Positions 32,592-38,644 of a DNA stretch of 42,133 nt are shown here, in pieces. The notes under the pieces are model-generated. The model was not told where the DNA came from, searched no databases, and worked only from the letters and a program-made list of their open reading frames with translations. Source of the stretch: Candidatus Uhrbacteria bacterium. Its GTDB lineage: Bacteria; Patescibacteriota; Patescibacteriia; UBA9934; GWF2-40-263. Each line of letters starts with the position of its first letter. Position 1 is the first letter of the stretch. The stretch covers positions 1 to 42,133 of the forward strand of contig JACRJU010000008.1 in assembly GCA_016219925.1 (NCBI GenBank), read 5' to 3'. The position numbers were made by a program, and so were the translations under genes.

Positions 32592-34442
32592 ATGGAAGCG
32601 CTCGAACCGCACACACAACTGACAACCCACCTGGGCATTGGCGTTGTCGTTTTTTTGATTTGTGCCGCTGGAGCCTCGCTCATCTGGGCCGAACAATATC
32701 GTGGACGTATGGCTCCTTATGTCACGGTCGGTTCTGTGGATGTCAGTGGCCTGGATCCCCAAACTGCACGCACACTGGTACAAACAAAAATTGATGCCCT
32801 CCTGACAAACGGTATGACGGTGGCGATCGATGGAGAGATCAAGCCTTTGCCTCTTTCGCACGTCATTTCAGGAGATGTCGTTGAAGATGTGAACTTCGAT
32901 TTAGATGCCGCCATCACGGAAGCCACCCACGCCCGCCGATCACCTTGGCGGGTCATGGATGCGGGGCTTCTGCTAACCCATATCTGGCACAGACAACAGA
33001 TTGTCCTTCCGGTTTCGCTTTCAGAAAATTCCATCAAACAAGAAATCTACCAACAATTTCCTCAAACCGAAACGCTTGCGCGTGATGCGGGATTTATTTT
33101 CACCCAAACCCCAACAGGATGGGAAGGTACGATCCGCCCGTCCATCAACGGAAAAGAATTTCAGTGGAACGAATTCTTTCCTGATCTCAACAAGGCCCTC
33201 GAGCAACTCACCCCCTCGCAAGTAGAATTGAATCTGGTTGCAAAAGCGGCTGAAGTTACAAACGAACGAGCCGAGGCGCTCCATGAGCAGGCTCTCTTTC
33301 TGCTCTCTCAACCTCCTTTCATTTTTACGGACACGGACGAGCGAGGAGAACAACACACCTGGACCCTCGATGACCACGCCTTATCGCTCATGCTCTCGCC
33401 TACAGCTCAAGATGATATTACGGCTGATCGCGACGCGTTTGAAATCTTCCTTGCTCCCATCGCGACGGCAACGGAGCAAGCCGCCCAGAACGCGCGGTTT
33501 TCTGTAAACCAAGGTCGTGTCGTTGAATTCGCCCAAAGCCATGATGGACGCAAACTGGATCGTGATGTCTTGTTTACCACGTTCACGCAAGCCCTCATCT
33601 CAAACACACGAAACCCCATTTCCCTCCCGTTTATAATCGAAGAGGCACACACCAAAACAGCCGACGTGAATGACCTTGGTATTGATCAAATTCTCGGAGT
33701 GGGCACATCTTCCTATCGTGGGAGTCCAGCCAATCGAAAAAAGAACATCCAAAATGGGGTGAACTTGCTTAATGGTCTTCTGATTGCCCCGGGGGAGACT
33801 TTTTCCCTGCTTGATGTGCTCAAACCCTTTGATACCGATAACGGCTACCTGCCAGAACTCGTCATCAAGGGAAACAAAATCACCCCCGAGCTCGGGGGCG
33901 GCCTGTGCCAAATTGGGACGACGACATTTCGAGCGGCTTTAAACTCCGGATTGCCCATCGTCGAGCGTAGCAACCACTCGCTGGTCGTCTCCTATTACAA
34001 TGATCCTGCAAACCATAACCCCGGAACGGACGCCACGATCTATGATCCCTCCCCAGATCTTAAATTCCTCAACGACACTGGACACGCTATTCTGTTCCAA
34101 GCAGAAAACCTGACACAAACCCAAGAACTCCGGTTTACTTTTTGGGGAACGTCTGACGGACGCAAGGGCTCTTACGAACCTCCAACTGTTTTGCGATGGA
34201 TTCCGGTTGGTGATCCTCAACGCACAGAAACAACGGATCTCAAACCCGGAGAAGAAAAATGTCAGGACGCCCATATCGGCGCTGACGCAAGTTTCGTATA
34301 CACGATTAAACGACCAGACGGCACTGAAGAAAAAACGACATTCACCTCGCACTACCGACCTCTGCCGCGCATGTGTCTTGTTGGTGTTGAAACACTCAGC
34401 GAACCGCCGCCGCTAGATCAAACGAATCTATCCACAGAGTAG
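32592..34442 (+). CDS. VanW-family cell-surface protein
   Basis: This 616-residue protein has a single N-terminal membrane helix (residues 15-33, LGIGVVVFLICAAGASLIWA), so most of it should lie outside the cell. Two repeats resembling the peptidoglycan-binding domain PG_binding_4 cover roughly residues 45-330, for example VTVGSVDVSGLDPQTARTLV. The VanW domain follows near 390-510, with LLIAPGETFSLLDVLKPF, ELGGGLCQIGTTTFRAAL, and NHNPGTDATIYDPSPDLKFL. VanW itself is of unknown biochemical function; relatives such as YoaR are linked to the cell wall. It probably shares the hsp20 transcript. It is convergent with the 6S-like RNA, whose 3' end meets its stop codon. Confidence 0.88.
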   Translation: MEALEPHTQLTTHLGIGVVVFLICAAGASLIWAEQYRGRMAPYVTVGSVDVSGLDPQTARTLVQTKIDALLTNGMTVAIDGEIKPLPLSHVISGDVVEDVNFDLDAAITEATHARRSPWRVMDAGLLLTHIWHRQQIVLPVSLSENSIKQEIYQQFPQTETLARDAGFIFTQTPTGWEGTIRPSINGKEFQWNEFFPDLNKALEQLTPSQVELNLVAKAAEVTNERAEALHEQALFLLSQPPFIFTDTDERGEQHTWTLDDHALSLMLSPTAQDDITADRDAFEIFLAPIATATEQAAQNARFSVNQGRVVEFAQSHDGRKLDRDVLFTTFTQALISNTRNPISLPFIIEEAHTKTADVNDLGIDQILGVGTSSYRGSPANRKKNIQNGVNLLNGLLIAPGETFSLLDVLKPFDTDNGYLPELVIKGNKITPELGGGLCQIGTTTFRAALNSGLPIVERSNHSLVVSYYNDPANHNPGTDATIYDPSPDLKFLNDTGHAILFQAENLTQTQELRFTFWGTSDGRKGSYEPPTVLRWIPVGDPQRTETTDLKPGEEKCQDAHIGADASFVYTIKRPDGTEEKTTFTSHYRPLPRMCLVGVETLSEPPPLDQTNLSTE

Positions 34443-34637
34443 TCTTGCGCATCGTGAAACACAGGAGTAAGCCATAGAGGAGCTTACACGAAACTTAAAA
34501 GCAGTAACCTGCAGGCAAGAAATTTCATTTATGGGAAGGTCAAGTCCGAGAACCAGAACTTCCATAAAGTGAAATCCCATGCTTGTCGTGCCTGCAGATC
34601 ACTGCTGTCAAGATGCGCACAAAATAGACTCAGGTTG
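34441..34637 (-). ncRNA. ssrS: 6S-like regulatory RNA
   Basis: This stretch of about 197 bases has no ORF and folds as one long imperfect hairpin. The closing stem pairs TGCGCATC (34612-34619, read on minus) with GATGCGCA (34446-34453), with AGTC/GACT beyond. Inside, GCAGT, CTGCAGGC and the 17-base arm around TTTATGGAAG each meet their complement, leaving a loop near 34545. Read on the minus strand, the 3' side of the open region has a small hairpin GTAAGC/GCTTAC, as in 6S RNA. A good promoter at 34645-34673 points into it. 6S RNA binds RNA polymerase by mimicking an open promoter. I rely on shape, length and promoter, not on sequence identity. Confidence 0.6.
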
Positions 34638-34644
34638 ACACCCG

Positions 34645-34673
34645 AGAATACCAGGGTACGCGAAAATTGTCAA
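34645..34673 (-). promoter_or_regulatory. Promoter of the 6S-like RNA
   Basis: On the minus strand TTGACA (34668-34673) and TATTCT (34645-34650) are 17 bases apart. It lies just downstream of the clpP terminator and upstream of the structured RNA. Confidence 0.75.
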
Positions 34674-34718
34674 GAATCTTCACCAACTCAATGTTACTCT
34701 TATTTGACAGGTCGTGCA

Positions 34719-34753
34719 AGAAAAAGGACTTTCCCTAGAAAGTCCTTTTCTTT
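34719..34753. terminator. Terminator of clpP
   Basis: AAGGACTTT (34724-34732) pairs perfectly with AAAGTCCTT (34739-34747). T-runs follow on both strands. It ends the minus-strand nrnA-clpP transcript about 50 bases after the clpP stop. Confidence 0.85.
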
Positions 34754-34799
34754 TTGTCAAAATGACCTAAAATATCCACGTTTTATCCAGAGTTTATCC

Positions 34800-35378
34800 C
34801 TATTTGATGACCTTATCGACCAAGCCATATTTTACGGCTTCGACCGCGTCAAGAAAGTAATCGCGCTCTGTATCCTCTTCAACCTTCGCCATTTTTTGTC
34901 CGGTATGTTTGGCAAGAATTTGGTTGAGACGATCCTTCATTTTCAAGATGCGCTCGGCATGAATTTTGATGTCTGTCGCCTGCCCTTCAATCCCTCCAAG
35001 CACTTGGTGAATCATCACTTCAGAATTTGGTAAGACAAACCGCTTGCCTTTAGCCCCTGCCGTCAGAAGAACCGCACCCATAGAAGCGGCCATGCCAACG
35101 CAAATCGTGGAAACATCCGGTTTCACATACTGCATTGCATCATAAATCGCCATGCCAGAGGTGACTGATCCGCCCGGGGAGTTGATGTAGAGTTTAATGT
35201 CTTTCGATTTATCTTGACTCTCCAAAAAAAGCATCTGGGCGATAATCAAGTTTGCAACCATATCGTCAATAGCCGTGCCAAGAAAAATGATGCGGTCTTT
35301 AAGCAGACGCGAGTAGATATCATAGGCGCGCTCGCCCATGTGTGTTTTTTCAATAACTGTTGGAATGAGGATGGACAT
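34800..35378 (-). CDS. clpP: ATP-dependent Clp protease proteolytic subunit
   Basis: ClpP forms the tetradecameric serine-protease chamber that works with ClpX or ClpA. The protein is 192 residues, normal length. The catalytic Ser99 lies in [11 protein letters not shown], the catalytic His124 in [10 protein letters not shown], and the oxyanion region in [17 protein letters not shown]. The start [20 protein letters not shown] is typical. An AAAGGAG sequence lies 11 bases before the ATG. It follows the DHH phosphoesterase gene by 36 bases on the same strand and probably shares its promoter. No clpX is in the window. Confidence 0.95.
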
Positions 35379-36460: not shown

Positions 36461-38644
36461 ATGCACCTCGAACGCCTCGAAATTCAAGGGTTCAAAACCT
36501 TCGCCAAGAAGACGATTTTAACGTTTCTCCCTCCGCACGACAACCATTACCCGATCACGGCCATTGTAGGCCCAAACGGAAGTGGCAAAAGCAACAGCGC
36601 GGATGCGTTGCGTTGGGTTTTGGGTGAACAGAGCTTAAAACTTCTTCGCGGCAAACAATCAGATGATGTCATCTTTTCGGGATCCGAAGGGAAAAGCCGA
36701 TCGGGATTCGCCGAGGTGACGATCGAACTCAACAACGAAGATCAAGCCATGCCAATTGACTATGCGCGCGTAGCGATCACCCGACGACTCTATCGCGATG
36801 GCACCTCCGAGTATCTTCTCAACGACCGCCCTTCCCGCCTCAGTGACATCCAACTGCTCTTAGCACAGGCAAATATCGGTCAGCGATCTTATGGAGTGAT
36901 TGGCCAAGGAATGGTCGATCACATTTTGGTCGCTTCCCCAGAAGAACGCAAAGCTTTTTTCGATGATGCCACGGGGGTCAAGCCGTTTCAGATAAAACGA
37001 CACGAATCCGTGCTTAAACTGAAACGCACAGAGGAAAACCTCGCGGACGTTCGCTTGGTGCTCCAAGAGATTGAACCGCGCATGCGTCTATTGAAGCGAC
37101 AAGCCTCGCGTTTGGAACAACGCGCCGAGATCGAAGCTGATTTGCATGGGCGCGAAGAAGCCTACTACGGCACCCAGTGGTGGGAACTCACCGATCAAAG
37201 AAGCAAGGAGGAAAAAGGCCGGGCTTTGGTTCAAGAAAAAATCACCACTTTAGAAGCACATCTACACGTCCTGGAGGAAAACGTCCGTCACATTGCCGAG
37301 CAAGACGGAGAAGATGCCGGGCTTTCTGCTCTGCAACGTTCCTATCGCGCCGCCCAAAAATCGCTCGACGATATGAGGCATGCGCATTTCGCGACGGAAA
37401 AAGAAATTGAGCTTACTAAAGTCCGCGCGCAATCAAACTGGGCGCCTCTCCCCCTCTCTCACATCATCGAGGAAGTTAAAACCGTTGTCGAAGAACTGGG
37501 AAGGCTGAAAAAATTGAGCGATGTGAAAGCTCTGCATGAGGCCATTCAAAAAATTTTCTCGCGCTCAACCTCTCTTGCCAAACGTTTAGAGCGTCCAAGC
37601 CCGGAGGACATCAAACCCGATCCGACTCTGCTCGCCAAACTTAAAATGTTTACCGAACAGGAGGCAACACAGGCCAAGGTGCTATCAGAAATTGAAAAAC
37701 AGATTGATGCGTACACCGCCAAAGAACACCAAGTCCGCGCCGAGCTCATTCAGATCCAAACGGCGTTGCGCGAAAAACAACATGAGCGCCACACCCTCGA
37801 ACAGGAACAAAATCGTTTTGAAATCGAACAGGCGCGGTTGGAGGAGCGCGCACAAGGTCTGATCAAAGAGATGGATGAGTTTATGAAAGCACGTGCGGTC
37901 AATGTGCGTCTCGCGCGGCCGACACATCTGGCAACAACAACCACCGAGGCCTACCCCGAAATCCAGCGACTGCGCGATAAGCTGGAACTGATTGGTGGGA
38001 TTGATCCTGAAACAATCAAAAAATACGAGACAACAAAAGAGCGGTATGAATTCCTGGATGAACAAGCCACGGACCTCCAACAAGCCATTCGCTCCACACA
38101 AAAAATCATCGAAGAGCTAGATGAACAGATTGAAAAACAATCGAAAAAAATTTTCGGAGAGATTAATAAAAAATTCCAATGGTATTTCAAAATGCTCTTT
38201 GACGGCGGAACCTGCGAACTGATCAAACTAACCGCAAGTGTAAAACCATCGGAAGACGAACAACCCCCTGAAACAACCCCAGAAGGCGTCGAGATCCAAG
38301 CGACTCCACCAGGCAAACGTTTAAAGGCTCTGAACCTCCTTTCCGGCGGAGAGCGAGCGCTGACCTCCATCGCCCTTCTGTGCGCCATTATGGACGTGAA
38401 CCCTTCGCCGTTTGTGATGCTCGATGAGGTGGATGCGGCGCTGGATGAATCCAATACAATTCGTTTTGCCGCAATCCTCGATGAACTGTCACACAAAAGC
38501 CAATTCATTATTATCACCCACAACCGCGCCACCATGGAAAAAGCGGATATTCTCTATGGGGTCACCATGGGGGACGACGGCATCTCCAATTTGCTAAGTA
38601 TCCACTTAGAAGACATCGCCCAAAGCGGCACGGCGCGACGCTAG
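36461..38644 (+). CDS. Short SMC-like chromosome segregation ATPase without a hinge
   Basis: SMC proteins are ATPases that organise and segregate the chromosome. Both head halves are clear: [17 protein letters not shown], Walker [10 protein letters not shown] (residues 37-45), [20 protein letters not shown] near 155, then at the C-terminus the signature [20 protein letters not shown] and Walker [16 protein letters not shown]. The protein is only 727 residues against about 1150-1200 for normal SMC. Between the heads lie about 400 residues of mostly coiled coil, with a break near [14 protein letters not shown] and another near [13 protein letters not shown], but no globular hinge with conserved glycines. 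It is therefore a mini-SMC. The frame is intact, so it is not a truncation by mutation. It starts without a ribosome binding site. Confidence 0.9.

Follow-up and report, generated by a model that had tools for sequence, protein, structure and literature searches.

A conserved rod-shaped small RNA of Patescibacteria, possibly a 6S/Ms1-like RNA

The window, a stretch of 42,133 nucleotides from a Candidatus Uhrbacteria contig, contains an intergenic space at 34443-34799 that is bounded on one side by a VanW-family gene (32592-34442, plus strand; PF04294 and PG_binding_4) and on the other by clpP (34800-35378, minus strand; PF00574), and that holds a non-coding, strongly structured element. The VanW-family gene converges on this element, clpP lies upstream of it on the same strand, and a terminator hairpin with T-runs on both sides (34722-34749, assigned to neither strand) stands between clpP and the RNA gene. 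These coordinates bear out the original prediction, which had placed the element between a clpP terminator and a convergent VanW-family gene. Insertions and deletions of 1-3 bases in loop lengths among relatives exclude a small coding ORF. Elsewhere in the window, a single plus-strand ORF (36461-38644) encodes an SMC-like protein of 727 amino acids, which is presumably shorter than a usual SMC. The window also carries, at 34429-34436, the sequence TATCCACA, which resembles a DnaA box. In 26 of the 30 family loci (L001-L030) the RNA is followed by TGTGGATA, and DnaA-box-like sites are most concentrated at a distance of 100-200 nt behind it (19 loci).

Upstream of the element, a −35 hexamer TTGACA (34668-34673) and a −10 hexamer TATTCT (34645-34650), the latter with an extended −10 TG, are both found on the minus strand. 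The TTGACA-17-TATTCT promoter that had been predicted does exist, TG before the −10 included, with its strand now specified as minus (34673-34645). The RNA is therefore read from the minus strand, with an inferred transcription start near 34638. A second, weaker promoter-like site (TTGCAC...TAACAT; 34691-34719, minus strand) lies further upstream and recurs in the family by eye only. Within the set of 74 class sequences described below, TTGACA-17-TAnnnT is conserved upstream of most members, typically with a perfect TTGACA, and 78% of the sequences have an upstream promoter-like score of at least 10 of 12, compared with 4% of mononucleotide shuffles.

The minus strand also folds far better than expected, with 34441-34638 reaching -76.2 kcal/mol versus -48.6 for shuffled sequences (z -7.05, none of 200 shuffles as good). 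The plus strand was rejected as the RNA, since its fold (34441-34673) reaches a z of -3.40 versus -7.05 to -7.23 on the minus strand, and the class-wide covariance model R2 gives it 21.3 bits versus 102.3. Read on the minus strand, the structure shows 111 G-U against 33 A-C combinations over 41 pairs, 60 of the 111 G-U coming from two invariant G-U pairs. We are close to certain that a small-RNA gene lies on the minus strand of the window.

Promoter, rod and terminator are all present in relatives. The closing stem runs directly into a T-run in many of them, and in others a separate terminator hairpin follows the stem; at this place the genome of the window has a weak terminator-like hairpin after the core (34467-34487, minus strand). 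Transcripts are estimated at a median of 172 nt in the 62 of 74 class sequences that could be scored, and the gene in the window probably yields an independent small RNA that is about 150-190 nt long. A riboswitch or leader is excluded by the RNA's own promoter and terminator and by its changing neighbors. Behind the RNA, 16 of 30 family loci, L003, L008 and L023 among them, carry an antisense promoter-like site that faces it (TTGCNN, spacer, TAAGAT), compared with about one expected over 149 shuffled loci, and an antisense transcript at the locus is possible.

A DNA search at a loose threshold (E <= 1) matched 89 of 95 related genomes, and the 30 best loci, that of the window among them, were brought into one orientation and aligned (alignment A1). 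When scored against a specified structure, A1 had 93.2% of its cells paired versus 83.4% when shuffled, 18 pairs changed on both sides, and a covariation of 0.281 versus 0.113 shuffled (0 of 500), with structures slid along the alignment giving 0.041-0.077. From these 30 sequences we built the covariance model R1. A wider alignment of 74 matches (A3), drawn from 60 class-diverse stretches and 11 family loci, had 92.4% of cells paired versus 63.5% shuffled and double changes at 40 of 45 pairs; because A3 was fitted to R1, these pair counts lean towards the R1 structure. Its covariation was 0.742 versus 0.201 shuffled (0 of 500), and slid structures reached at most 0.148. The comparative fold thus supplied the compensatory changes whose absence from relatives had been named as grounds for abandoning the prediction. 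Together with the fold z of -7.05, this covariation strongly supports the claim that a CPR (Patescibacteria) genome encodes a structured small RNA.

The shape of the RNA differs from the one first proposed. The original prediction described a single hairpin of 197 bases, but what is conserved is a rod of only 133 bases (34619-34487, minus strand), the stretch matched by both R1 and R2. Neither the outer closing stem of the longer fold (GUGCGCAU/AUGCGCA) nor its 3'-side hairpin (34487-34467) has a counterpart in relatives, where the place of the hairpin is usually taken by a separate intrinsic terminator (22 aligned family members, by eye), and we rejected the 197-base structure as a fold of one sequence.

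The rod begins with a closing stem of about 20 pairs, whose sequence covaries freely among class members; a 5' central bulge comes next, followed by the upper stem, which ends in a terminal hairpin. At the bulge lies a 14-nt block, CACGACAAGCAUGG (34577-34590, minus strand), of which 10 nt (34579-34588) are unpaired in the main register. This block is almost constant in all 74 sequences, single positions differing in 0-4 of them, and the 7 nt before it, which form the 5' arm of the adjoining helix, occur in 32 variants. The 3' strand facing the bulge (34509-34519, minus strand) comprises CUUG and the closing-helix arm CCUGCAG, and the 3' partner of the block is mostly UUCUUG across the class. 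Two registers are possible, since CUUG has two potential partners, the CA..GG edges and the CAAG within the bulge. Class members show hardly any 3' opening opposite the bulge, this side of the rod being closed. The terminal hairpin (34542-34554, minus strand) carries a near-invariant wobble (GG..CU), which is G-U in 68 of 73 scored cells. Variation of this plan is seen in the sister lineages f140 and f155 (L293, L294 and L295), where the bulge measures only about 3-4 nt and hardly any bubble is left, and in two distant members, L297 and L299, which have a 3'-side hairpin. Families f35 and f91 also include genomes with a tandem second copy of the RNA: L100 (1777-1910 and 2001-2131), L149 (1786-1916 and 2001-2131) and L126 (2001-2187 and 2258-2370), the second copy of L126 having a changed bulge.

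A nearly invariant, unpaired 10-nt stretch presented by a stable rod could be the seed of a trans-acting RNA that base-pairs with a conserved mRNA or rRNA target. However, the strand opposite is also invariant, which a seed would not need, and the two best sister lineages lack a comparable single-stranded stretch. We therefore consider such a seed function unlikely.

In the class carrying the RNA, which we take to be ABY1 of GTDB, R1 at E <= 0.001 matched 320 of 380 genomes (250 of 292 by genus), a search set that includes some of the genomes from which R1 was built. Matching class genomes almost always carry one locus, and the second R1 matches in G000 and G011 are a weaker antisense reading of the same element. 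In a sample of the phylum, R1 matched 30 of 379 genomes, and R2 at E <= 0.1 matched 41 of 379, namely 32 of the 33 that belong to the class and 9 of the 346 that do not. The best R2 matches outside the class (G510, 3.8e-13; G471, 1.5e-11; G497, 1.1e-8; G579, 5.0e-7) retain promoter and terminator as well as a CUGUAGGCA-type closing helix, but lack the class-specific bulge. A pattern scan of named genomes found at least 113 stretches. The 80 pattern matches listed came mostly from Uhrbacteria, Falkowbacteria, Magasanikbacteria, Buchananbacteria, Kerfeldbacteria, Komeilibacteria and unnamed Patescibacteria, and at least six of those listed are chance matches in unrelated taxa, which were kept in the 155-locus neighbor count and dropped from the 149-locus set. 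The RNA was not found behind clpP of G020 (L310), and the contig of G033 stops just past clpP. The RNA is thus single-copy and nearly universal in one large class of Patescibacteria, which are tiny bacteria that have not been cultured, with diverged relatives elsewhere in the phylum.

Across the class, the most conserved neighbor of the RNA is the VanW-family gene. In the set of 155 distinct loci, which includes the six chance matches, a VanW homologue was present in 131, lying convergent behind the RNA in 113 and in other orientations in 18, and ClpP and Hsp20 were present in 64 and 42 loci, respectively. Adjacency of the RNA to VanW has been retained far more often than adjacency to clpP. 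RuvB, searched for with a query protein identified as RuvB by TIGR00635, was found in 19 of the 155 loci, always divergent upstream of the RNA. Beyond the class, VanW follows the RNA in convergent orientation in L293 and L294, L295 is flanked by RuvB before the RNA and VanW behind it, and RuvB stands upstream, divergently oriented, in L297, L299 and L301. Downstream of the RNA, L296, L297 and L299 share a convergent, mutually related protein resembling a pilus/type II secretion ATPase (named by eye). These conserved neighbors support the weak model matches; L297, for example, matched R2 at an E of only 4.9e-4 and occupies the same place.

The frequency with which VanW converges on the RNA, the intrinsic terminators around it and the opposite-strand promoter-like sites in 16 of 30 family loci would all be compatible with an element acting in cis, for example one that regulates the convergent VanW gene in antisense or serves it as a shared terminator, or a clpP 3' UTR. 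Yet the RNA has its own strong promoter, clpP is present at only 64 of the 155 loci, and VanW takes other orientations in 18 loci and was not found beside the RNA in L296, L297, L299 or L301. Moreover, the structure far exceeds a terminator, and the sense strand is the one that scores much higher (102.3 vs 21.3 bits). We give a role in cis very little credence.

The original prediction identified the element as 6S RNA and named a match to another RNA family as a result that would speak against it. No Rfam 15 family lay over the element in a scan of the whole window at the gathering threshold. At relaxed thresholds, the window region and 30 related loci gave only sub-threshold matches at the element, namely three miRNA models (23-25 bits), AaHKsRNA41 (23.4 bits, gathering threshold 97) and IsrM (19.4 bits, gathering threshold 376), and none of these was 6S. 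The 6S covariance model RF00013 itself failed to match the window's sequence (0 of 1) or its relatives (0 of 59, E <= 1), and so no other 6S RNA was found in these 59 genomes either. As RF00013 matched only 5 of 14 positive-control genomes, this model misses many phyla. In the open-licence literature, papers on CPR, Patescibacteria or Parcubacteria together with 6S, SRP, structured or small RNAs contained nothing on the present RNA, and none linked 6S RNA with CPR/Patescibacteria, in keeping with the earlier remark that no such example was known.

Another widespread RNA, the bacterial SRP RNA (RF00169, RF01854), shares with the element a hairpin rod, a strictly conserved asymmetric loop and a single copy per genome. 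A strongly diverged SRP (4.5S) RNA would account for near universality, and also for the failure of searches in relatives to detect any SRP RNA by model (RF00169, 0 of 59; RF01854, 0 of 39), a motif pattern matching 1 of 59. However, the conserved loop lies mid-rod here versus at the apex in SRP RNA, and the apical GNRA loop with AGG/AGCA of the SRP domain IV motif is absent from the small RNA. Furthermore, the Ffh (SRP54) M domain (PF02978) exceeded the cut-off in none of 29 relatives, compared with 14 of 14 controls, and the sole weak match reads like a PilC/GspF protein. Because the order also seems to be without the RNA-binding domain of the SRP protein, an SRP RNA is highly improbable here, and we ruled out this identity on the basis of the SRP models, the motif and the M-domain searches. 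A separate observation is that neither SRP RNA nor the Ffh M domain was detected in the order of the window's genome, with positive controls; judged from these sequence searches, the order seems to lack a signal recognition particle.

How far does the RNA resemble 6S? A study of lactic acid bacteria (PMC8414754) describes 6S RNA as present in nearly all bacteria, with a canonical layout of a closing stem, a large 5' central bulge holding the product-RNA start, an apical stem and a hairpin opposite. The present RNA agrees with 6S in its size range, its wide spread and its long rod with closing and apical arms, and one large 5' central bulge lies between the two helical arms as in that layout. 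The double-stranded rod of 160-200 nt is matched here by one backed by covariation, with the median of 172 nt (62 of 74). Likewise, both have their own strong promoter and terminator, and tandem copies occur in some genomes (here L100, L126 and L149). A conserved block at the presumed product-RNA start corresponds to the 14-nt block next to a varying helix, and a constant block adjoining 32 different 7-nt 5' arms is what would be expected if a product-RNA start were constrained. A further parallel is the invariant A adjoining a possible C start, as PMC8414754 notes a conserved A upstream of the start.

Other features fit less well. The 3'-side hairpin of 6S is seen here only in the distant members L297 and L299, the 3' side of the bulge is closed, and the bulge is nearly lost in two sister lineages; CAAG and CUUG could moreover pair across the bulge, against an open bubble. 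A conserved neighborhood is common to both, but its members are RuvB, VanW or clpP here, and RuvB differs from the RarA of 6S, whose gene adjoins rarA in lactic acid bacteria (PMC8414754). The study also describes product RNAs whose first 11 nt are conserved, with GG at positions 4/5 or 5/6. The complement of the invariant block, CCAUGCUUGUCGUG, has no GG from plausible starts, and the candidate product RNA (AUGCUUGUCGUG) has neither GG at 4/5 or 5/6 nor AA at 9/10. Thus, size, rod, 5' bulge, promoter and tandem copies fit the 6S identity; a match to RF00013 and the GG signature are absent, and the 197-base shape is not conserved. The 6S label is plausible but unproven. A precedent for a lineage with a 6S-like RNA other than 6S is Ms1 of Actinobacteria, which PMC9130861 presents as lineage-specific, structurally 6S-like and traced by synteny. 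Ms1 binds core polymerase and is about 300 nt long with two extra end hairpins, and the length and end hairpins of the small RNA do not fit it.

The lack of any 6S family match also fits a different kind of RNA, unlike 6S, that would belong to a new housekeeping ribonucleoprotein of Patescibacteria and in which the loop (CACGACAAGCAUGG vs UCUUG) and the wobble hairpin would bind one or two proteins with the RNA as scaffold. Invariant letters on both loop strands and the wobble (G-U in 68 of 73) resemble protein or tertiary recognition, and in sister lineages the loop has been replaced, as if the partner had changed. On the other hand, the layout fits 6S as well, and loop conservation alone cannot tell the two readings apart. 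We regard this scaffold role as possible but somewhat doubtful, and we are similarly hesitant about the fuller proposal of an undescribed, phylum-wide Patescibacteria housekeeping RNA with a class-specific loop, forming the core of a new RNP other than 6S in hosts seemingly devoid of SRP.

By analogy, we tentatively read the small RNA as a 6S/Ms1-like polymerase-binding RNA, an identification that we hold to be quite possible while stopping a little short of calling it probable. Under this 6S/Ms1-like reading, the small RNA would be made in quantity and would act like 6S or Ms1 RNA, its rod mimicking a promoter inside the DNA channel of RNA polymerase and its 5' central bulge (CGACAAGCAU) lying at the active site. 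The rod would keep polymerase in reserve, and the enzyme would be freed once the bulge had been copied, as a template, into a short product RNA.

CPR/Patescibacteria make up a large part of bacterial diversity. With its single copy, own promoter, covariation and presence in most genomes of a class as well as in sister lineages, the RNA is a candidate for their missing global regulator, or else for a new RNP. The apparent absence of SRP RNA and the Ffh M domain from the order is a second testable surprise. On either reading, the RNA can enter Rfam and be sought in existing metatranscriptomes.
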